Source: Gammaproteobacteria bacterium
Lineage (GTDB): Bacteria; Pseudomonadota; Gammaproteobacteria; Steroidobacterales; XN24
DNA length: 64,000 nucleotides
Direction: 5' to 3'
Assembly: GCA_024640085.1 (NCBI GenBank)
Contig: JAHEFR010000012.1
Span: forward strand, 1 to 64,000
Positions 1-44,097 of this stretch are shown here, one piece after another (position 1 is the stretch's first letter; each line of letters opens with the position of its first letter). The position numbers and the translations under genes were made by a program. Below the pieces are notes generated by a model. That model saw only the letters and a program-made list of their open reading frames with translations. It did not search any database and was not told the origin of the DNA.

Positions 1-407
1 GTGACCTCGTCGACCATCACTCCGGGGGTGCTTGCGATCTCGACCCTCGGCGTTTCCGCAATCTCCGTTCCCGCGCCGTACATGATGACGACGGCGATGC
101 CTGCCAGAGCGGTAATGATCAGGTAGTCGGTCCGCTGCAGTGGAGTGGGCCCGGCCGCATCTCCGTCGTCCGTTGCCGGTGTTCGCACGATCCCGTGGGT
201 GGTGATGTCGTAAAACCAGCCGAACACCAGTGCCAGGGGAAACCCGACAACGGCGGCGACCAGTAACACGTTGATGGCGGAATCCGGCAGTCCCCATCCC
301 GGGAAGAACACGTCCGCCGCCTGCATGACCAACCAGGCTCCTACGATGTAGAAGCCGGCCATGCGAAGGACCTTGCGGCGTCGCAGTTCTCGGACGAATG
401 CTCTCAA
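1..407 (-). CDS. N-terminal part of a TolB-like/TPR membrane protein (paralogue 1, cut by window edge)
   Basis: About 135 N-terminal residues are visible; the rest lies outside the window. It opens with the same head as the four genes upstream of it: a basic ELRRRKVL segment, a first helix containing AGFYIVGAWLVMQAADVFFP, a second containing INVLLVAAVVGFPLALVFGW and the ITTHGIVRT motif, then a third hydrophobic stretch (YLIITALAGIAVVIMYG). The only plausible start is TTG at 407-405, since a stop codon lies upstream at 431-429 with no ATG or GTG between; the ATG at 362 is internal to the conserved head. Family function is inferred from the intact neighbours. It is last in the run of five tandem genes. 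Confidence 0.8.
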   Translation of the reverse strand, partial: MRAFVRELRRRKVLRMAGFYIVGAWLVMQAADVFFPGWGLPDSAINVLLVAAVVGFPLALVFGWFYDITTHGIVRTPATDDGDAAGPTPLQRTDYLIITALAGIAVVIMYGAGTEIAETPRVEIASTPGVMVDEV

Positions 408-624: not shown

Positions 625-2880
625 TCAGTGTGCGGCCGAAGCGCGCTTGGCTTGCGCCTCATCCACCAGCGCAGGCAGATCCTCCTCGGCGTCAAGCTTC
701 TCCACCTCGAGGCGCTGCCGGTCCAGGTCCGCCTTCACTTCCTCCATCATGGCCTGGAATCGAGGGTCGTCTTTGACCATCAGCCAGCGTGGATCGTGGC
801 TATCCGTGTAGTAGCCCCGCCATCCGGTGTCGATGGCCTTTCTCAGGCGCTCGAGCGCGAGTTCCCTGTCGCCAAGAAGTGCGGCATTCAGCGCGAGCCA
901 GTAGGCCAGGGGATTCCTGTCCCGGCCCCCGCCCTGGGGACCTTTCGCGGCCTGTTCTATGGCTTGCAAAATCGTCTGCGCCCGCTCTTCTTCGCCGATT
1001 CCGATGAGTGCCAGGGCGAGAACCTGACGACCTTCGAGCCCCCATTCATCGAGGCTTACCAAGCCACCCTCGTAATCTACCTGCAACACCTCGACAGCCT
1101 TTTGATACTCGCCTGCCATGGCAAGCCACCAGCCATAGCCGAAGCTGTACCAGGTCAGCTCGTCCGTATCCACACCGCTCGACGCGATCGATTCGACAAG
1201 GTCTTGGAGCGCTTCCGGGTACCGGCCCTGCCACGCAGGCACCAGCGCCGGGTACATCCAGTTAAAAGCGTACTCAGGGTGATCCTGAACGCTACGATCG
1301 ATCCAGTATTGGGCCTGGTCCCACATCGCCAGCATGGCGTACGACAAGGCCAGTCCGTAATAGGCATGCTTCCAGAGGATGGCCAGGCGCCGCTCGTAGA
1401 TGTTCATTTTCACGACCTGGCCAGTGTCGCGAAAGAAATCGCGCAACCCTATGAAGATCCCCCTGGGGGGATCCGGTGCGTCCGCCAGTTTGACCATGAT
1501 CTGCTCGGCGGAAGCGACATTCCCTTCGCGGAGTTCGTATTGCGCCACATTGATTGCAATCGAGGGATGGTATGGGTCCAGCCTGTAGGCCCGGTACATC
1601 AGCGCCATGGCTTCCGATTCCCTGCCCTGCACGTCGAGCGCCGCCGAAAGCCAGTTCATGGCATCCACCATGCTATGGTCCTGGTCCAACGCCTGGCGCA
1701 GAGCAATTTCTGACGCCGAGTATTCCGGCGGGACCTTCTGCTGCATGAGCAGTCCCCTCGCTGCCAGGGCCCGGGGCATCCGGGGATGCAGGGTCAGCGC
1801 CGTGTCGATGACTTCTCGAGCCTCCTCGATCTCGGACTCTTTCGGCGCCCCGATCAATATGGCGATCGCCAGCTCGGCATAGGGGTCGGCAAACCCCGGG
1901 TCGAGATCGATGGCCTGCCGCAATTTCTCCGCTCCCTTCCGGGTGTCCCGCTGATGCACGAGTTCCCGGCCCCGCAGGAACTGCTGGTAGGCATCCAGAT
2001 CGGGCTCATAGACCAGCGACGCGGCCGGCACTATCTGCGGGACCACCGTGGTCGCGACGATCTCGGCGATTTCGGCCTGGGTCTTGAATACGTCTCCCAG
2101 GGTCCGATCGAAGGTTTCACTCCAGACCTGCGTGCCGTTCTCGTCCACGAGCTGGGCCGAGATGCGAAGCTGGCTACTCGACTTGCGGACGCTGCCCGCC
2201 AGCAGGTAACGAACGGCGAGGAGGTTGCTGATCCTGGGTATACCGTAGTTGCTGCCCTTGAACTGCCACGACGAAGTCCTGCCGGTGACTTGAAGGTCCG
2301 CATAGGCGGCAAGCTTGTTCAGGATCTCTTCGGAAACGCCGTCGCAAAAATAGTCGTTCTCCTGGTCGCTGCTCACGTTCGTGAACGGCAGGACGGCCAC
2401 CGAGTTGGCAGGCTTGTCCGCGGGCGCCGGACCGATCCGGTCTTCGATATCGTCCACCATGATCGGCGGCAGCGCCAGGATCCTGTTCGTGGCGTAGAAG
2501 ATGATTGTCGCGGACGCCAGCACCAGCGCCGCCAGGATGGCGTAGTCGCCCCCCCTGAGTGGGCGCGGTTCGCCGGCCTCGTGCGGTCCGACCGGGACGG
2601 TCCTCCTGATCCCATGAGTCGTGATGTTGAAGAACCAACCAAATACCAGTGCGACAGGGAACCCGAGGATTGCCGCCACGAGAAGCACATTGATGCCGGT
2701 ATCCGGGATACCCCATCCGGGAAAGACCACATCCGCGACCTGCAATAACAGCCAGGCGCCCACCACGTAGAGGCCGGCCGTGGCGAACATCCGGCGGCGG
2801 CGCAGTTCCTGGAAGAACCCTGTCACCGCCGGCGACCCCTGAAAGTTGTGAACAGACCGGCTTGCATTGCCCCGGAGCAT
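625..2880 (-). CDS. TolB-like domain and TPR-repeat inner-membrane protein (paralogue 2)
   Basis: About 751 residues from ATG 2880; the frame stays open to 2940, but the conserved ELRRRRMF head begins only about 25 residues after this start. Three hydrophobic segments (about residues 35-55, 62-85, 113-130) suggest membrane anchoring. A TolB-like domain follows (about 158-300) with the hallmarks NSVAVLPF, DGVSEEILNKLA, YLLAGSVRK, RISAQLVDENGTQVWSETFD and QAEIAEIVATTVVPQI. TPR-type helices rich in LDP and LHP turns fill the rest, ending in a conserved TGWRGYYTDSHDPRW block. Such proteins are often fused to DNA-binding or nucleotide-cyclase domains; neither is present here. The role is unknown; a scaffold or sensor at the inner membrane is a guess. 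Its N-terminal third shares an identical DNA block with the next gene. Confidence 0.88.
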   Translation of the reverse strand: MLRGNASRSVHNFQGSPAVTGFFQELRRRRMFATAGLYVVGAWLLLQVADVVFPGWGIPDTGINVLLVAAILGFPVALVFGWFFNITTHGIRRTVPVGPHEAGEPRPLRGGDYAILAALVLASATIIFYATNRILALPPIMVDDIEDRIGPAPADKPANSVAVLPFTNVSSDQENDYFCDGVSEEILNKLAAYADLQVTGRTSSWQFKGSNYGIPRISNLLAVRYLLAGSVRKSSSQLRISAQLVDENGTQVWSETFDRTLGDVFKTQAEIAEIVATTVVPQIVPAASLVYEPDLDAYQQFLRGRELVHQRDTRKGAEKLRQAIDLDPGFADPYAELAIAILIGAPKESEIEEAREVIDTALTLHPRMPRALAARGLLMQQKVPPEYSASEIALRQALDQDHSMVDAMNWLSAALDVQGRESEAMALMYRAYRLDPYHPSIAINVAQYELREGNVASAEQIMVKLADAPDPPRGIFIGLRDFFRDTGQVVKMNIYERRLAILWKHAYYGLALSYAMLAMWDQAQYWIDRSVQDHPEYAFNWMYPALVPAWQGRYPEALQDLVESIASSGVDTDELTWYSFGYGWWLAMAGEYQKAVEVLQVDYEGGLVSLDEWGLEGRQVLALALIGIGEEERAQTILQAIEQAAKGPQGGGRDRNPLAYWLALNAALLGDRELALERLRKAIDTGWRGYYTDSHDPRWLMVKDDPRFQAMMEEVKADLDRQRLEVEKLDAEEDLPALVDEAQAKRASAAH
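2314..2772. repeat. 459-bp block identical to 4701-5159 (gene-conversion tract, copy 1)
   Basis: Read side by side, these 459 bases match 4701-5159 without a mismatch, including every synonymous site. The block codes for the membrane head and the first part of the TolB-like domain. Bases just outside differ at both ends, and the remaining coding regions differ frequently. Offset between copies is 2387 bp, the gene period. Confidence 0.9.
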
Positions 2881-3011
2881 ACCGCAGGAAGTTGCCACCG
2901 GCACATGAAACGGGGCTACTCGATCGCCCGTCGGATTCAAGGCAGAACGGCGGAAATCCGGCGCAAGCCCACGCCCGCTCGCAACGACCCAACACGCACC
3001 AGGCCCAGCGG

Positions 3012-5234
3012 TCAGTGGGCCGACGCGGCCCTCTCGGCGCGAGCCTGATCGACGAGTGCCGGCAGGTCCTCTTCGGCGTCCAGTTTCTCCACCTCCAGGC
3101 GCTGCCGATCCAGGTCCGCCTTGACCTCCGCCATCATGGCCTGGAACCGGGGATCGTCTTGCAGCGAGTCCCAGCGAGGATCGTGATCGTTGATGTAGTA
3201 GCCGCGCCAGCCGGTGTCGATAGCTTTCCTCAGCCGCTCGAGCCCGAGGTCCTTGTCGCCCAGCAGAGCGGCATTTCTCGCCAGCTCATAGGCCAGTGGG
3301 TTCCTGTCCCGGCCGTCGCCCTGGGGACCTTTCGCAGCCTCTTCTATGGACTGCAGAAGGGACCGCGCCCGGTCCTCGTTTCCGATGCCAATGAACGCCA
3401 GGGCCAGAGCCTGACGGCCGTCGAGCTCCCATTCATCGAGATTTACCTGGCCACCTTCGTAGTCCGGCTGCAACTCCTCGACAGCCTCTTGATACTCGCC
3501 CGCCATCGCAAGGTAAAAGCCATGGAAGAATCTGTACCAGCTCAGCTCCCTGGTGTTCACGCCACTGGACGCGATCGACTCCGTGAGGTCACGAAGTGCT
3601 TCCGGGTACCTCCCCTGCAATTGGGGCAGCAGTGCCGGATACAACAGAACAAAGTCATGCTCAGGAAAGTCCTGAATGCTGCGCTCGATCCAGTATTGCG
3701 CCGGGTCCCACATCGCCAGCATTGCATAGGAAAGTCCCAGTCCCCAGTAGACATGCTTCCCGAGAATGGCCAGACGCCGCTCGATCTTGTTCATCTTCAC
3801 AATCTGGCCGGTGGAGAGATAGAATTCGCGCAGCCCGATGAAAGCCGCCCTGGAGGGATCCGGGACCTCCACCAGGTTGACCAGGATCTGCTCGGCGGCA
3901 CCGACATTGCCTTTCACGAGCTCCCTTTGTGCGACGTTGGCTCCGATTGACGCATGGAGCGGATCCAGCTTGAACGCCCGGTACTGCAATGCATCAGCTG
4001 CCGGTTCTTTGCCCTGGGAGCTCAGCGCTTGCGAGAGCCAGTTCATGGCGTCCACCATGTTGGGTTCCTGTTTCAGTGCCTCGCGCAGGACAATTTCTGA
4101 CGCCGGGTAGTCTGGCGGGACCTTCTGCTGCAGGAGCAGCCCCCTCGCTGCCAGGGCCCGGGGCATCCCGGGATGCAGGGTCAGCGCCGTGTCGATGGCT
4201 TCTCTAGCCTCCTCGATTTCGGACCTTTTCGGCGCCCCGATCAATATGGCGATGGCCAGCTCGGCATAGGGTTCGGCAAACCCCGGGTCGAGATCAATGG
4301 CTTTCCGTAGTTCCTCTGCGCCTCGTCGGGTGTCCCGCTGATGAACCAGTTCCCGGCCCCGCAGGAACTGCTGGTAGGCATCCAGACTGGGCTCATAGAC
4401 CAGCGACGCCTCCGGCACGATTTGCGGGACCACGGTTGTCGCGACGATCTCGGCGATTTCAGCCTGGATCTTGAATACGTCTCCCAGGGTTCGGTCGAAG
4501 GTCTCGCTCCAGACCTGCGTACCGTTTTCGTCCACTAGCTGGGCCGAGATGCGTAGCTGGTCACTCGACTTGCGGACGCTGCCGGCCAGAAGATAACGAA
4601 CGGCAAGAAGGTTGCTGATCCGGGGTATGCCGTAGTCGCTGCCCTTGAACTGCCACGACGACGTCCTGCCGGTGACTTGAAGATCCGCATAGGCAGCGAG
4701 CTTGTTCAGGATCTCTTCGGAAACGCCGTCGCAAAAATAGTCGTTCTCCTGGTCGCTGCTCACGTTCGTGAACGGCAGGACGGCCACCGAGTTGGCAGGC
4801 TTGTCCGCGGGCGCCGGACCGATCCGGTCTTCGATATCGTCCACCATGATCGGCGGCAGCGCCAGGATCCTGTTCGTGGCGTAGAAGATGATTGTCGCGG
4901 ACGCCAGCACCAGCGCCGCCAGGATGGCGTAGTCGCCCCCCCTGAGTGGGCGCGGTTCGCCGGCCTCGTGCGGTCCGACCGGGACGGTCCTCCTGATCCC
5001 ATGAGTCGTGATGTTGAAGAACCAACCAAATACCAGTGCGACAGGGAACCCGAGGATTGCCGCCACGAGAAGCACATTGATGCCGGTATCCGGGATACCC
5101 CATCCGGGAAAGACCACATCCGCGACCTGCAATAACAGCCAGGCGCCCACCACGTAGAGACCCGCCGTCGTAAACACCCGGCGGCGGCGTAGTTCTCGCA
5201 TAAGGCGGGACATGGAGGAATCGTCTTTCGTCAT
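3012..5234 (-). CDS. TolB-like domain and TPR-repeat inner-membrane protein (paralogue 3)
   Basis: 740 residues, beginning with a short hydrophilic leader (MTKDDSSMSRLMRELRRRRV); a second possible ATG lies eight codons in. Three hydrophobic segments fall at about residues 22-43, 50-75 and 100-118. The TolB-like domain (about 146-290) is almost the same as in the gene downstream, but the TPR region (about 300-720) has diverged more: for example QALSSQGKEPAADALQYRAF here against AALDVQGRESEAMALMYRAY there. It ends with a conserved Glu/Lys/Arg-rich tail (VKADLDRQRLEVEKLDAEED). No strong ribosome-binding site was seen before either start. It is separated by 131 bp from the gene downstream and 221 bp from the one upstream, so the genes may be expressed individually. 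Confidence 0.88.
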   Translation of the reverse strand: MTKDDSSMSRLMRELRRRRVFTTAGLYVVGAWLLLQVADVVFPGWGIPDTGINVLLVAAILGFPVALVFGWFFNITTHGIRRTVPVGPHEAGEPRPLRGGDYAILAALVLASATIIFYATNRILALPPIMVDDIEDRIGPAPADKPANSVAVLPFTNVSSDQENDYFCDGVSEEILNKLAAYADLQVTGRTSSWQFKGSDYGIPRISNLLAVRYLLAGSVRKSSDQLRISAQLVDENGTQVWSETFDRTLGDVFKIQAEIAEIVATTVVPQIVPEASLVYEPSLDAYQQFLRGRELVHQRDTRRGAEELRKAIDLDPGFAEPYAELAIAILIGAPKRSEIEEAREAIDTALTLHPGMPRALAARGLLLQQKVPPDYPASEIVLREALKQEPNMVDAMNWLSQALSSQGKEPAADALQYRAFKLDPLHASIGANVAQRELVKGNVGAAEQILVNLVEVPDPSRAAFIGLREFYLSTGQIVKMNKIERRLAILGKHVYWGLGLSYAMLAMWDPAQYWIERSIQDFPEHDFVLLYPALLPQLQGRYPEALRDLTESIASSGVNTRELSWYRFFHGFYLAMAGEYQEAVEELQPDYEGGQVNLDEWELDGRQALALAFIGIGNEDRARSLLQSIEEAAKGPQGDGRDRNPLAYELARNAALLGDKDLGLERLRKAIDTGWRGYYINDHDPRWDSLQDDPRFQAMMAEVKADLDRQRLEVEKLDAEEDLPALVDQARAERAASAH
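4701..5159. repeat. 459-bp block identical to 2314-2772 (gene-conversion tract, copy 2)
   Basis: Second copy of the exact 459-bp match. Its ends lie within coding sequence of both genes rather than at gene boundaries, which favours conversion between existing paralogues over fresh duplication of whole genes. Confidence 0.9.
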
Positions 5235-5455: not shown

Positions 5456-7678
5456 TCACTGGCTTGCCTGCTCCCTGGCAGCCCGGACCCTTTCCAGTAG
5501 CGCCGGAAAGTCTTCCTCAGTATCGATCCTTTCGACCTCTTCGCGCTGCCGATCCACGTCCGCCTTCACTTCTTCCATCAGCGCCTGGTAACGAGGATCT
5601 TCTGCCAACCCTGACCAGCGCGGGTCGTGACGCTGTATGTAGTAGTCGCGCCAGCCAAGCTCGATCGCCTGCTCCAGTCGGTCCAGGGCCAGATCCGGGT
5701 CGCCCATGAGAACGGCGTTGCGGGCCGCCGTGTAAAGGTCGTCGCTTGTCATCATCACGACGGAGGCGCCATGCTCGGCGAACCACTGCTCGAAGACCTC
5801 CAGCGGCTGCCGGCTCTCTTCCAGCAAGCCCGACTGGATGTAGGCCCATGCAAGCGCCTGGTAGGCATCCGCCCCATAATCGTCGTCAAGGGCAGACGGA
5901 TTGACCGTGTCCGGAAGCTCCTCTGCCAGTGTAGATATCGCTCCAGAGACATCGGCCGAAAGACTCTGGTTGATGCCATAGAATAATCGGAGCAGAGGCG
6001 CTAGTTGCTGCAGAGAGAGGTCATTCGATGCCATCGCCCGGCGCATCTCTTCTGCTGCTCGTTCGTAATCTCCTCGCCAGTACGGCGCCTGGGCCTGGAC
6101 CCAGCCTGTCCTCACCCACATCACGTCCGGGTTTTCCCGTGCGCTGGCTGAAATCCACTCCGCCCCAATCTCGAGCTCACCCAGCATCGCATAGGTGGTG
6201 GCGAGGAAGAACGCCTGCCACCCGCCCGCCAGCAACAATCGTTTTCCCATCATGCTGGCCTCAACCAGTCGGCCAGTATAGGTATACAGCTCCCATAGCA
6301 TTCTGAATGCCATAATCGGCGGCTCCGGGAGATCCAACATTCTTCGCAACATCGCCTCCGCCCGATCCGGGTCCCCGCTCTCCCAATGGCGGGTCGCCAG
6401 GTTGGCCACGATGGCCGCATTGAAGGGATCGATCCCGTAGGCTTTGTCCTGCCACCCGGCCGCCTCCTCGTCCGTTCCCTGCCGGACCAGCGCGCCTGCC
6501 AGCCAGTTCATGGCGTCCACCATGTTGGGATCACCCCTGAGCGCTTCGCGCAAGGCTGCCTCTGCAGCCACCGGATCGGGGGAACGTTGCGAAGTCAGGA
6601 ACAGGCCGCGGGCAGCATGGGCGCGCGGCAGATCGGGGTCCAGATCGAGGGCGGCATCGATTGCCGCCTCCGCCTGCTGCAGTTGCTGCTCTTCCGGGTA
6701 ACCGATCACCAGACTGATGGCATATTCCGCCTGGGCCTCCGCATACCTGGGATCCAGCTCCACGGCCATGGCCAACTCCTTTTGCGCCGCCCACTGGTCC
6801 CTCCGGTAGGTGAGATCCCGCCCGACCAGGAAATGCCGATAGGCGTCGAGAGAAGGCCTGTAGCTCCCGTCCCCCCCGGCGACGATCTGCGGCGCCACTT
6901 CGGTGGCGACCAGGTCGGCGATCTCGTCCTGGATGCCGAATACGTCCTCCAGTACCCGGTCGTAGTTCTCGCTCCACACCTGGGTTCCCTTGTCCACCAC
7001 GAGTTGGGCCGACACCCGGATCCGGTCTCCTTGCCTGCGCACGCTGCCCAGCAGCAGATACTGCACGCCCAGCAGGTCGCTGATCCTGGGGACACCATAA
7101 TCGCCGCTCTTGAACTGCAGCGACGACGCACGGGCGATCACCTGCAGTTCGGTGTGGCGCCCGAGCCTGTTACGGATCTCCTCCGACACCCCCTCCGCGA
7201 AGACCTGGTCCTCCGGGTCGGTGCCGATGTTGTCGAACGGCAGCACAGCGATCGAGTTCGGCAGTTTCTCTGCCGGCGCCAGATCGATCCGGGATTCGGA
7301 CCCCGTCGTATCTGCCCTTGGCAGCAGCAGTACGTGAATCGCGGCGTAGGAGACGATGGCGCCAGCGACCAGCAGCAGCGTGCCCAGGACAAAGAAATCG
7401 TTGCCCTTCAAAGGCCGGGGTTCGCCCGCGTCCCCGGCACCCATCGGCACGGTTCGCCTGATCCCGTGAGTGGTGATGTTGAAGAACCAGCCAAACACCA
7501 GGGCGAGCGGAAAGCCCGCTACGGCGGCGATGAACAGAACGTTGACGGCTGCATCTGGAAGGCCCCAGCCGGGAAACAGCACGTCTGCCACCTGCAATAT
7601 CAGCCATGCACCCACGACGTACAGACCGGCCGTGGTGAACACCCGGCGACGACGCAGTTCGTGGATGAGTCCTTTCAC
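5456..7678 (-). CDS. TolB-like domain and TPR-repeat inner-membrane protein (paralogue 4)
   Basis: 740 residues from a GTG start at 7678, preceded by GAGAGG about eight bases upstream; the conserved head begins at residue 6 (HELRRRRVFTTAGLYVVGAW). The domain order matches its neighbours: three hydrophobic segments, a TolB-like domain starting near NSIAVLPFDNIGTDPEDQVF, then TPRs. It is the most divergent of the full-length array members: DGVSEEI reads EGVSEEI, the loop has PRADTTGSESRIDLAPAEKL, and the TPR region has little close similarity to paralogues 2 and 3. The C-terminal DYYIQRHDPRW block and the RQREEVERIDTEEDFPALL tail are kept, so this end may do something shared by the family. Nothing indicates a ligand. 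Confidence 0.87.
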   Translation of the reverse strand: MKGLIHELRRRRVFTTAGLYVVGAWLILQVADVLFPGWGLPDAAVNVLFIAAVAGFPLALVFGWFFNITTHGIRRTVPMGAGDAGEPRPLKGNDFFVLGTLLLVAGAIVSYAAIHVLLLPRADTTGSESRIDLAPAEKLPNSIAVLPFDNIGTDPEDQVFAEGVSEEIRNRLGRHTELQVIARASSLQFKSGDYGVPRISDLLGVQYLLLGSVRRQGDRIRVSAQLVVDKGTQVWSENYDRVLEDVFGIQDEIADLVATEVAPQIVAGGDGSYRPSLDAYRHFLVGRDLTYRRDQWAAQKELAMAVELDPRYAEAQAEYAISLVIGYPEEQQLQQAEAAIDAALDLDPDLPRAHAARGLFLTSQRSPDPVAAEAALREALRGDPNMVDAMNWLAGALVRQGTDEEAAGWQDKAYGIDPFNAAIVANLATRHWESGDPDRAEAMLRRMLDLPEPPIMAFRMLWELYTYTGRLVEASMMGKRLLLAGGWQAFFLATTYAMLGELEIGAEWISASARENPDVMWVRTGWVQAQAPYWRGDYERAAEEMRRAMASNDLSLQQLAPLLRLFYGINQSLSADVSGAISTLAEELPDTVNPSALDDDYGADAYQALAWAYIQSGLLEESRQPLEVFEQWFAEHGASVVMMTSDDLYTAARNAVLMGDPDLALDRLEQAIELGWRDYYIQRHDPRWSGLAEDPRYQALMEEVKADVDRQREEVERIDTEEDFPALLERVRAAREQASQ

Positions 7679-7911: not shown

Positions 7912-10008
7912 TCAGTCCGACAGCGCTGGCAGACCCAAACTGGGGTGGCTCGCCTCGACCTCGGCACGCTGCCGGTCCACGTCCGCCTTCACCTCTGCCA
8001 TCATCGTCTTGAATCGGGGATCGTCTGCAATGGACGACAACCGTGGATCGTGACTGTCCGTGTAATACCCGCGCCACCCGGTGTCGATGGCCAGCTTCAG
8101 CCGCTCGAGCCCGAGTTCCTTCTCGCCCAGAAGCGCGGCGTTCCTCGCGAGGTAGAAGGTAGTCTGACTGGACTGTGGGCTGATATTGCCCCGACTTGCC
8201 GCAGCCCGTTCTATAGCATCGAGAAGGGCGATGGCACGTTCCTGTCCACCGGTTTCCATGAGCGCCCACGCCAGGGATTGCCGTGCATCGAGCTCGAAAT
8301 CATCTTGGAGCATCACCTGTGTGCCTTCGTAATCCGATTGCAGCACCTCGATGGCAGCCTTGTAGTCGCCGGCCATGGCCAGCACAGGGCCATACAGCGT
8401 CCTGTTCCATCTTGAATCAGTCAGCTCAAGCTCATTCGACACGATATATCGGTTGAATTCCTCCAGTGCCCCCTGGTAATTGCCCTTCATCGTCTTGACT
8501 ACCGTTGCGTACCATGGATTTATGGGGTCGTCTGGCCAGTCGTACAGTGCGCGCTGGGCGAAATATTCGGCCCGGTCCCACATGGCGAGCAATCCGTTTA
8601 TCCATGCCAGGTACAGGAACGGGTGATGGGCGGGATCCGGTACCTGCACCAGCCTGAGCAGGATCTGCTCGGCGCGAACCAGGTCACCCTTGTAGAGATA
8701 GTTCGTAGCCAGATTTGTCCCGATCGAAGGGTGCAATGGATCCAGGCCGTATGCCCGGTGATACAACGCATTCGCTTCACTGGTCTTGCCTTGCGACTGG
8801 AGTGCGCCAGCCAGCCAGTTCATAGCGTCGAGACTATTGGGATCCTGTTCCAGGGCCTGCCGTAGAACAGCTTCCGCGGCCTCGTTGTCTGGCTGCGGTT
8901 GCTGCTCAAAGTACAGGCCTTTGGCCGCCAACGCGCGTGGCATCCGGGGATGCAGGGTAAGGGCCGTTTCGATCGCCTCCCGTGCCTCCGCAAAATCCGT
9001 TTCATCCGGGTTGCCGATGAGGGCGGCGATGGCCAGTTCCGGGTAGGGCTCGGCATACCCGGGATCGAGTTCGATCGCCTTGCGAAGCTCGTTGCGCGCG
9101 CGGGGATCGCGTCGATAGTTCCATTCGCGCCCTGCGAGGAAGTGACCATAGGCATCCACGCTCGGTTCATAAGAGACAGAGGGCTCCGGAACGATCTGCG
9201 GCACAACGGTAGTAGCCACCAGGTCGGCGATCTCGGTCTGGATCGCAAAGATGTCGGTAAGCGTCCGGTCGAAGGAGTTGCTCCACCGCTGGGCACCGCT
9301 GTCATCCACAAGCTGCGCTGAGATACGGAGCTTGTCACCGACTTTCTGGACGCTTCCCTGGAGGAGATAGCGCACGCCCAGCAATGCGCTGATCCTGGGT
9401 ATCCCGTAGTCGCTGCCCTTGAAGACAAAGGAGGATGTCCGCCCGGTAACGTGGAGTTCCACGTGTGCCGCGAGCTTGTTCAGGATCTCGTTGGAGACGC
9501 CGTCGCAGAAATATTCATTGCCCGGGTCATCACTGACGTTTACAAATGGCAGCACAGCGACAGAGTTAGCTGGTCTTTCGTCTGGCGCCGGACCCATGCG
9601 GGTCTCATAGCTATCCCCCACAGTTCTCGGCAAGTCCAGGATCCTGTGCGTGGCGTCAAAGACGATCCCGGCGGCGACGAGCACCAGCGAACCGAGTACC
9701 AGGTAGTCCCTGCCTTGCAGCGATCGGGGTTCGGCGGCGCCCTCGGGACCTGCCGGCATGGTGCGCCTTATGCCCTGGGCGGTGATGTTGAAGAACCACC
9801 CGAATACCAGGGCCAGGGGAAAGCCAATGACGGCTGCGGCGAGCAGTACGTTTATGCCGGTGTCCGGAACCCCCCAACCGGGGAAGAACACGTCGGCGGC
9901 CTGCATCACCAGCCACGCGCCCACCACGTACAGCCCGGCCGTGGTGAACACGCGGCGGCGACGAAGTTCGTGGAAGAAACCCTGAGATCTGGGACTGGTT
10001 TCGGACAT
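7912..10008 (-). CDS. TolB-like domain and TPR-repeat inner-membrane protein (paralogue 5)
   Basis: About 698 residues from ATG 10008 (MSETSPRSQGFFHELRRRRV), preceded by a GGGGAGGGG run about eleven bases upstream. The frame is open to 10080, but the extension has no family features. The first helix contains LYVVGAWLVMQAADVFFP; the TolB-like domain begins NSVAVLPFVNVSDDPGNEYF and includes GVRYLLQGSVQKVGDKLR. The TPR region is about 40 residues shorter than in paralogues 2-4, with a gap near the INGLLAMWDRAEYF helix. The C-terminal GYYTDSHDPR block is present, but the Glu/Lys tail is replaced by a shorter end (EVEASHPSLGLPALSD). It is the first gene of the tandem run in the direction of transcription. 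Confidence 0.88.
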   Translation of the reverse strand: MSETSPRSQGFFHELRRRRVFTTAGLYVVGAWLVMQAADVFFPGWGVPDTGINVLLAAAVIGFPLALVFGWFFNITAQGIRRTMPAGPEGAAEPRSLQGRDYLVLGSLVLVAAGIVFDATHRILDLPRTVGDSYETRMGPAPDERPANSVAVLPFVNVSDDPGNEYFCDGVSNEILNKLAAHVELHVTGRTSSFVFKGSDYGIPRISALLGVRYLLQGSVQKVGDKLRISAQLVDDSGAQRWSNSFDRTLTDIFAIQTEIADLVATTVVPQIVPEPSVSYEPSVDAYGHFLAGREWNYRRDPRARNELRKAIELDPGYAEPYPELAIAALIGNPDETDFAEAREAIETALTLHPRMPRALAAKGLYFEQQPQPDNEAAEAVLRQALEQDPNSLDAMNWLAGALQSQGKTSEANALYHRAYGLDPLHPSIGTNLATNYLYKGDLVRAEQILLRLVQVPDPAHHPFLYLAWINGLLAMWDRAEYFAQRALYDWPDDPINPWYATVVKTMKGNYQGALEEFNRYIVSNELELTDSRWNRTLYGPVLAMAGDYKAAIEVLQSDYEGTQVMLQDDFELDARQSLAWALMETGGQERAIALLDAIERAAASRGNISPQSSQTTFYLARNAALLGEKELGLERLKLAIDTGWRGYYTDSHDPRLSSIADDPRFKTMMAEVKADVDRQRAEVEASHPSLGLPALSD

Positions 10009-10160
10009 CTGCGAGAACACCCCTCCCCGTGCACTCGCGCCAGTATACGGTCTGAGTACCGGCCCGATCACCGTTCGCACGCGGTGTCAGAGCTGTAGGG
10101 TGCCGCGTGCCACAGATGTGCAACCACCCCGTTGCCCGACTTCGAATATAGTTAGCCGAT

Positions 10161-38528: not shown

Positions 38529-38549
38529 GGTGCCGGTGTTCGGTTTCTT
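38529..38549 (+). repeat. Left REP of the RAYT element
   Basis: The 21-bp REP. It overlaps the transposase stop codon by two bases (stop at 38550-38548). The same 21 bp recur at 41557 and 43941. Confidence 0.85.
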
Positions 38550-39414
38550 AGGTTTTCCGCCTTCGCTGCAGCGCTTCGCAGAGCGTTGCTTCGGACCGGT
38601 TTAGCCGCCTCGATACTTCAGCCAGCGTCGCCGCACCCGAGTCCAACGCCTCAATGGCTATGTCGGCACGCACCCGCGCCAAATACCTAGCGCGACTTGG
38701 TCCCGTCAGTTGGGCGACGGTTAGCCGATTTCGAGCGCAATGCTGGTGCACGATCGATTCCAGACTAGCGGATTTCTGCTCCTCCAATCCGCCGGTTCCG
38801 CTGTGAACAGACACAGCGGGGATCTCATCGCAGTCGTCAGCGGCAGGATCCTCATATCGGACAGTACCGGGATCCGCCCCGTGCATGAAGTCCCGATACT
38901 GACAGACTGCGATAGTCCTCCGCCCGGAGAAAAGGCTCAACACCCGATCCGTGTGCAGCCAGCCCCGGGTGACCTCGCCCAGATAGGCTCGGTGGCTACT
39001 CCACACATAAGCTTCAGGCACATCGGCGAGGCGCGCTCGAACCGGATTATTGTGGATGTAGCGAACAAGCCCAAGAAGATAGCGATCATCACGGACGAGA
39101 AATGCACTGTGGCGGCGCTCAAATAGATGGCCACTGGTACCAAGCAAGCGATTAGTCCGGCGTGCGTATGTTGATGCTGCATATTGCATGATTCGAGAAA
39201 GCGGCGCCTGCCCCACTTCCACCACCAAGTGGACATGATTCGTCATCCAGCAATAGCAGTGGATCGATCCGTCGTATCGCTGCAGCGCGCGGTCCAGGCA
39301 GCCTTCCCAGCGATCCCGGTCATCGGCGCAGAAGAACACTGGTTTTCGTCCATTACCGCGCAGAATGGCGTGATAGAAACCGCCAGGTACATGGACTCGA
39401 GGTTTTCTGCCCAC
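38548..39414 (-). CDS. REP-associated tyrosine transposase (RAYT, Y1 transposase)
   Basis: 288 residues from a GTG start at 39414. The catalytic Y1 (HUH) domain is complete: RVHVPGGFYHAILRGNGRKP, CYCWMTNHVHLVVEVG with the His-x-His pair, MQYAASTYARRTNRLLGTSG with candidate Tyr, GHLFERRHSAFLVRDDRYLL and YIHNNPVRARLADVPEAYVW. A C-terminal helix-turn-helix of DnaA-like type follows (HCARNRLTVAQLTGPSRARY ... AATLAEVSRRLNRSEATLCE). These enzymes cut and join REP hairpins and are thought to move REP or REPIN sequences. The gene is intact and bracketed by inverted REPs, so it may be active. In the 157-bp copy at 43941, the base matching its GTG start is ATG. Confidence 0.93.
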   Translation of the reverse strand: MGRKPRVHVPGGFYHAILRGNGRKPVFFCADDRDRWEGCLDRALQRYDGSIHCYCWMTNHVHLVVEVGQAPLSRIMQYAASTYARRTNRLLGTSGHLFERRHSAFLVRDDRYLLGLVRYIHNNPVRARLADVPEAYVWSSHRAYLGEVTRGWLHTDRVLSLFSGRRTIAVCQYRDFMHGADPGTVRYEDPAADDCDEIPAVSVHSGTGGLEEQKSASLESIVHQHCARNRLTVAQLTGPSRARYLARVRADIAIEALDSGAATLAEVSRRLNRSEATLCEALQRRRKT

Positions 39415-39504
39415 CGACTCTTCCGTAGCTGCGCCCCTCCCGGGTTCTTGCAGACTACGCGGCGGCGAGGTCGACTAGAACGTCACCAATTGCTCAGAAA
39501 ACCA

Positions 39505-39525
39505 AAGAAACCGAACACCGGCACC
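39505..39525 (-). repeat. Right REP of the RAYT element
   Basis: Inverted copy of the 21-bp REP with one substitution (AAACC in place of AAGC). It is followed at once by the 17-bp tandem duplication. Confidence 0.85.
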
Positions 39526-41556: not shown

Positions 41557-41713
41557 GGTGCCGGTGTTCGGTTTCTTCGTGTATTCGAGGTCTTCGGCTC
41601 GTCAACGCTTCCGTTGCTTCGCCCATCCCGGGCCCTTGTGGACAACATGGCCGCGATGGCGCCTGGGACCCCACGAATCGATCAGAAAACCAAAGAAAGC
41701 GAACACCGGCACC
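41557..41713. mobile_element. 157-bp REP-bounded miniature element (copy X)
   Basis: It has REP in plus orientation at 41557-41577 and an inverted REP at 41693-41713. The right 129 bp (41585-41713) aligns without gaps to the right end of the RAYT element, including the start-codon region of the transposase. An inner imperfect hairpin is suggested by the GCTGCG..GCAG region seen in the other copies. It begins ten bases after the stop codon of the TPR gene at 39649. Confidence 0.85.
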
Positions 41714-41772
41714 TGTTGTCCCTCCGAATCGATCAGAAAACCAAAGAAAGCGAACACCGGCACCTGTTGTCC
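41675..41772. repeat. 51-bp-period direct repeat carrying the inverted REP of copy X twice
   Basis: The stretch from GAATCGATCAGAAAACCAAA through the REP and CTGTTGTCC is present twice with a period of 51 bp (first unit starting at 41675, second at 41726), nearly without mismatch. The second inverted REP therefore lies at 41744-41764. Confidence 0.88.
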
Positions 41773-43940: not shown

Positions 43941-44097
43941 GGTGCCGGTGTTCGGTTTCTTCGTGTATTCGAGGGTCTCGGCCCATCTACTCTTCCTTAG
44001 CTGCGTTCGCCCCGGGCCCATGCAGACGACGTGGCGGCGATGGCGACTGGAACCTCACCAATGGCCGGCAAAACCAAAGGAAGCGAACACCGGCACC
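43941..44097. mobile_element. 157-bp REP-bounded miniature element (copy Y)
   Basis: REP in plus orientation at 43941-43961 and inverted REP at 44077-44097 (one substitution). It has the same length as copy X, with the right 129 bp (43969-44097) collinear with the right end of the RAYT element. It lies between the coiled-coil gene promoter and the proA 3' end, 21 bp past the proA stop codon. Confidence 0.85.

Follow-up and report, generated by a model that had tools for sequence, protein, structure and literature searches.

A probable recent gene conversion tract between tandem TPR genes of an uncultured gammaproteobacterium

Two neighboring genes near the start of the window (the whole 64,000-nt stretch of DNA that was analyzed) encode TPR proteins that differ at many positions but share a long segment without a single mismatch, raising the question of whether this segment was recently copied from one gene to the other, is held identical by constraint or selection, or arose during assembly. 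The genes, denoted A and B, belong to a tandem array of paralogues (Table 1). The first base of the window is base 1 of contig C40 and falls inside paralogue E, so that the five paralogues counted in the initial annotation comprise four complete genes and a fifth that is only partial. The probable start of gene A is the GTG at 2826, though the mechanical ORF extends to a TTG at 2940. Gene D is the closest relative of the A/B pair within the same genome. Since A and B are collinear, without indels along their length and at a constant offset of 2387, they can safely be compared base by base. The maximal exact direct repeat shared by A and B has 461/461 bases identical, two bases longer than the 459-bp identity (2314-2772 and 4701-5159) that had been described. 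The ends are as sharp as had been claimed, with A/B mismatches at 2311 and 2773 directly adjoining the edges, and the many changes reported outside the tract also were observed: A and B differ at 56/571 bases downstream of the tract (1741-2311), at 264/1116 bases farther downstream (625-1740), and at 17/51 bases on the 5´ side, beyond which upstream similarity is absent. In 248 kb of sequence from this genome, which took in the window along with most of the other family loci, the tract was the sole exact repeat longer than 49 bp.

Table 1. Genes of the tandem array and segments compared between genes A and B (positions in the window).
Feature	Position	Strand	Description
Gene A	625-2826	-	Membrane head, TolB-like domain, TPR repeats; from ORF list, TPR Pfam matches and alignment
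Gene B	3012-5234	-	Sister paralogue of A, 740 aa; structure model with mean pLDDT 79
Gene C	5456-7678	-	Tandem paralogue, 48% aa identity to B
Gene D	7912-10080	-	Tandem paralogue, 60% aa identity to B
Gene E	1-404	-	Fifth paralogue, head only; 54% identity to B residues 9-129; truncated by contig start
Tract copy in gene A	2312-2772	-	Exact repeat of 4699-5159; codons from TM helix 1 to the middle of the TolB-like domain; dS 0
Tract copy in gene B	4699-5159	-	Exact repeat of 2312-2772; residues about 26-178 of the 740-aa ORF
Older, partly homogenized zone in gene A	1741-2311	-	Partner 4128-4698 in gene B; dS 0.33, dN 0.04

Proteins A-D all carry matches above cut-off to Pfam TPR_2, TPR_14, TPR_16, TPR_17 or TPR_19, and all four complete genes also score above cut-off with the NCBIfam TPR_END_plus model. 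No Pfam match to the TolB N-terminal domain was found in proteins A-D; residues 131-260 of C match TIGR02800 (N-terminal part of TolB) with an E-value of 2e-5, far under the cut-off of that model. We examined an AlphaFold model built for B with six sequences (mean pLDDT 79), in which hydrophobic N-terminal helices at residues 20-41, 49-72 and 99-124, predicted with low confidence, are followed by an alpha/beta domain at ~146-272 and then by a TPR superhelix that runs to the C-terminal end. A Foldseek search with this model returned TPR proteins, O-GlcNAc transferase among them. NCBIfam models of HilA/EilA-type proteins and of peptide-modification cyclases also match parts of A and B below cut-off (PRK12370, over B 148-431; TIGR04510), but unlike proteins of these types, A-D were found to have no DNA-binding or cyclase domain, with only the short membrane head in front. 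Literature searches yielded no functional study of this protein family. Based on the model and the domain matches, A/B-type proteins probably are TPR scaffolds anchored in what would be the inner membrane and include a domain similar to the N-terminal one of TolB. The tract starts inside TM helix 1 of the B model and stops inside helix 164-180 of the TolB-like alpha/beta domain. Since both ends fall within helices, the tract does not follow functional or domain borders.

The silent sites distinguish the tract sharply from its surroundings. Within it dS is 0, with no change over ~117 silent sites, as opposed to an A/B dS of 0.57 across the remainder of the gene, and by zone the values rise to 0.33 in 1741-2311, 0.76 in 625-1740 and 1.32 in the short 5´ stretch. 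Distant paralogues are nearly saturated at silent sites, and dS between them was interpreted only where dN was low. The uniformly low synonymous divergence across both genes that, according to the initial annotation, would speak against conversion was not seen. At the local divergence of 10%, an identical run of 461 bp has a probability of about 10^-22. In a Sawyer-type run test that took in the five nearest paralogues, the observed run spanned 223 polymorphic sites, while the longest among 20,000 permutations spanned 52; with third positions only, the run was 118 compared to 48 in the shuffles. Near-zero silent divergence between diverged flanks and a run longer than shuffled sites produce are both features of gene conversion. 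The second dS step (0.33 versus 0.76) was significant as well, with 0/2000 codon permutations as low. Judging from this stepwise pattern, the latest event probably was preceded by one or more earlier episodes, or by an older tract of greater length.

Strong constraint at the protein or silent level, such as an overlapping gene or an RNA signal, could in principle hold the head identical without conversion, and the head is better conserved than the body across the family (mean nucleotide identity 0.52 versus 0.44). However, the combination of 0/117 silent changes with an edge that is abrupt to a single base is unlike purifying selection, and the heads of other paralogues and of orthologues vary freely at silent sites. 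For 23 reciprocal-best pairs from related genomes, the median orthologue dS was 0.43 in the head, 0.50 in the TolB-like domain, and 0.37 and 0.34 in the two TPR halves. Heads were higher in dS than the TPR part in 12/16 comparisons (p 0.05), which is suggestive only as the pairs are not independent. Contrary to the view that the head is preserved while the TPR part is free to vary, silent divergence between orthologues is at least as high in the head. Given that orthologues show no depression of dS in this region, special silent constraint is not the cause of the identity, and we regard this explanation as extremely improbable. The region is free to vary at silent sites, and the A/B identity therefore needs recent copying.

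We also considered how the assembly may have affected the tract. The genome (3.19 Mb in 73 contigs, 96% complete) probably is a short-read metagenome bin in which repeats are collapsed. Long repeats such as tuf and 16S typically are broken by short-read assembly; in this bin, only the last 39 codons of EF-Tu are present, at the start of a contig and ahead of an apparent rpsJ (G000:C47:1-121, where G000 is the genome of the window), and a search of the genome gave no match for 16S. With such an assembly, a 461-bp repeat within one contig must have been resolved by read pairs or by loop unrolling, for which a tandem pair is the easiest case. An artefact could have been generated if the two heads shared k-mers and merged in the de Bruijn graph, with bubbles smoothed and the loop unrolled such that one sequence was used twice. 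The broken tuf and missing 16S sequences, together with the termination of the contig within the next paralogue, are in line with such collapse. On the other hand, both reading frames are open across all four tract junctions, the window is free of N runs, and no further repeat longer than 49 bp was found among the other family loci examined. In addition, only copies with long exact stretches in common can be merged, which means that near-identity must be real for most of the tract, compared to 10-24% divergence downstream. The near-identity thus likely is real, though exact identity may be overstated, given that short-read assemblies can merge slightly differing copies and may have smoothed out some differences inside the tract. 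Overall, we consider an assembly artefact unlikely, though it is the one serious reservation about the tract.

Tandem duplication or unequal crossing-over alone was ruled out, as either would leave identity over the whole repeat unit rather than a 461-bp island. The explanation we favor, and consider probable, is that ~461 bp were copied from one of the neighboring sister genes, A or B, to the other by recent non-reciprocal homologous recombination (ectopic gene conversion), one or more older episodes having come before. The initial proposal of recent gene conversion is well supported by the zero silent divergence, the sharp edges and the permutation test (0/20,000). RecA-type recombination between the tandem copies, or between replicating sister chromosomes, would have started where the A/B pair was still similar enough, in the head and TolB-like part, at least one prior episode presumably having lowered divergence in 1741-2311. 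The conversion would have put the same anchor on both bodies; selection for sameness is without support, and none need be invoked for the site of the tract, since sequence similarity alone can set where recombination is possible. As a counterpoint, 461 bp is long beside the conversion tracts of Mycobacterium tuberculosis (median 101 bp, IQR 33-244; PMC13061034). GC3 values of 0.82 for the tract, 0.81 for the A flank and 0.74 for the B flank give no firm pointer to the donor. A search of the contigs of related genomes for orthologues of the A/B locus revealed one distant locus only, with the nearest gene, in G003, at ~50% amino acid identity, and no close relative that could reveal donor and direction of copying carries the locus.

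The initial annotation went further, proposing that the TPR part diversifies behind a head whose identity is maintained by conversion. This was not borne out in the same genome, where the C, D and F heads are 61-69% identical to the A/B head in amino acids and 67-70% identical to the tract in nucleotides, and where the heads of B, C and D, within one array, differ from each other at 31-41% of residues. Nor did related genomes support it. The family is large, with 62 matching stretches in the 3.19 Mb genome and 18-33 strong matches per genome in six genomes of the same taxonomic family, in which tandem arrays of ~22 genes (G006:C28:248-293 kb), ~16 genes (G005:C32:61-96 kb) and ~11 genes (G002:C27:404-427 kb) were noted, often with overlapping open frames. 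No other near-identical head was found among 1,306 within-genome pairs; the A/B heads have a nucleotide identity of 0.984 over the compared columns and the next best pair 0.762. Heads thus are not generally held identical, as no other pair comes close to A/B. Apart from 100-bp repeats in G001 that turned out to be runs of N, the arrays of the six related genomes contained no exact tract longer than 53 bp. Long-term concerted evolution of the head, with within-genome heads closer than orthologues across the family, also was not observed, as few head windows favored paralogues and array genes mostly pair with their own orthologue in both head and body.

Windows in which a within-genome paralogue beat every orthologue numbered 10/181 in the head, 1/472 in the TolB-like domain and 0/773 in the TPR part, an excess that is a lead rather than proof given that the thresholds favor conserved regions. 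Three pairs in related arrays (G006 280k/282k, G006 253k/256k and G005 81k/83k) have a head dN of 0.01-0.07 and a TPR body dN of 0.84-1.50; at the extreme, G006 253k/256k combine a common head at dN 0.01 with unrelated bodies, for which the TPR dN is 1.50. The G006 282k gene is a mosaic, with its first 80-100 codons from 280k (nucleotide identity of 0.83-0.98 per 20-codon bin over the first 80 codons) and its body nearest to 284k. Judging from these sequence comparisons, relatives appear to exchange heads occasionally onto unrelated bodies, which is not evidence of heads being kept the same, and the mosaics indicate that the same region recombines elsewhere, in favor of conversion at A/B.

The same data can be read as recurrent homogenization under selection, with paralogues required to share one membrane partner while their TPR bodies diversify, as was first suggested. 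The location of the tract in the head, the near restriction to heads of the windows in which paralogues win and the three pairs with near-same heads on diverged bodies all are compatible with this reading. We nevertheless find it very doubtful: none of the observations made here suggests a shared membrane partner, the heads of B, C and D are far from homogeneous, array genes mostly match their orthologues throughout, the tract ends ignore domain borders, and ectopic recombination is limited by similarity alone, so a bias toward the head needs no selection. Returning to conversion, we tentatively raise the possibility that the large tandem arrays serve as a reservoir, with ectopic recombination repeatedly moving the 5´ head segment between bodies to give new anchor-body combinations, and with the A/B tract as the freshest event.

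Other features were noted in the course of the analysis. One 1717-aa open frame on the minus strand (G000:C51:9400-14550) contains three separate family TolB-like stretches and perhaps corresponds to several fused members. The window also encodes a 288-aa Y1 (IS200-like) transposase (38548-39414, minus strand, in the region 38530-39524; PF01797, E-value 5e-11), the sole match to this transposase in the genome. The gene is flanked by inverted copies of GTGCCGGTGTTCGSTTTCTT, a motif with 14 copies in the genome compared to 0 for a reversed-pattern control, and further inverted pairs ~155 bp apart are present at 41558-41763 and 43942-44096 of the window. By these sequence features, the gene and the GTGCCGGTGTTCGSTTTCTT pairs resemble a RAYT gene and the REPIN elements that belong to it. 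Two TPR paralogues have REPIN-like elements within a few dozen bases on their downstream side, at window position 41558 (gene at G000 C40:39637-41544) and at G000:C46:28260 (gene at C46:28288-30204).

Exact partial tracts between paralogues, with dense variants outside, have been documented in long-read M. tuberculosis genomes (PMC12046097). The A/B tract resembles these PE/PPE cases (PMC12046097, PMC13061034) in that an exact tract covers part of two paralogues with dense differences outside, but there sister strains show the unconverted state and long reads are available, whereas here the evidence comes from adjacent TPR genes in one draft genome of an uncultured bacterium. As for tufA/tufB of Gammaproteobacteria (PMC5485169, PMC6053082), chromosomal duplicates probably have undergone conversion that leaves stretches identical at silent sites. 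In contrast to tuf, which is homogenized over the whole gene and in the long term, with initiation apparently uniform over the gene in Salmonella (PMC5485169), A and B share one partial tract in one pair whose bodies are diverging. A survey of concerted evolution in prokaryotes was confined to whole-gene cases (PMC6053082).

The A/B tract adds one more case of a known process, and an adaptive story for it is unsupported. Its value is as a clean, naturally occurring instance, in an uncultured bacterium, of partial conversion between tandem genes. It also draws attention to an under-described family, for which one genome of 3.2 Mb gives ~60 matching stretches. From the single A/B event, the main warning is that trees built from the heads of these genes mislead. 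Head-swapping, if general in related arrays, would show how such arrays diversify.
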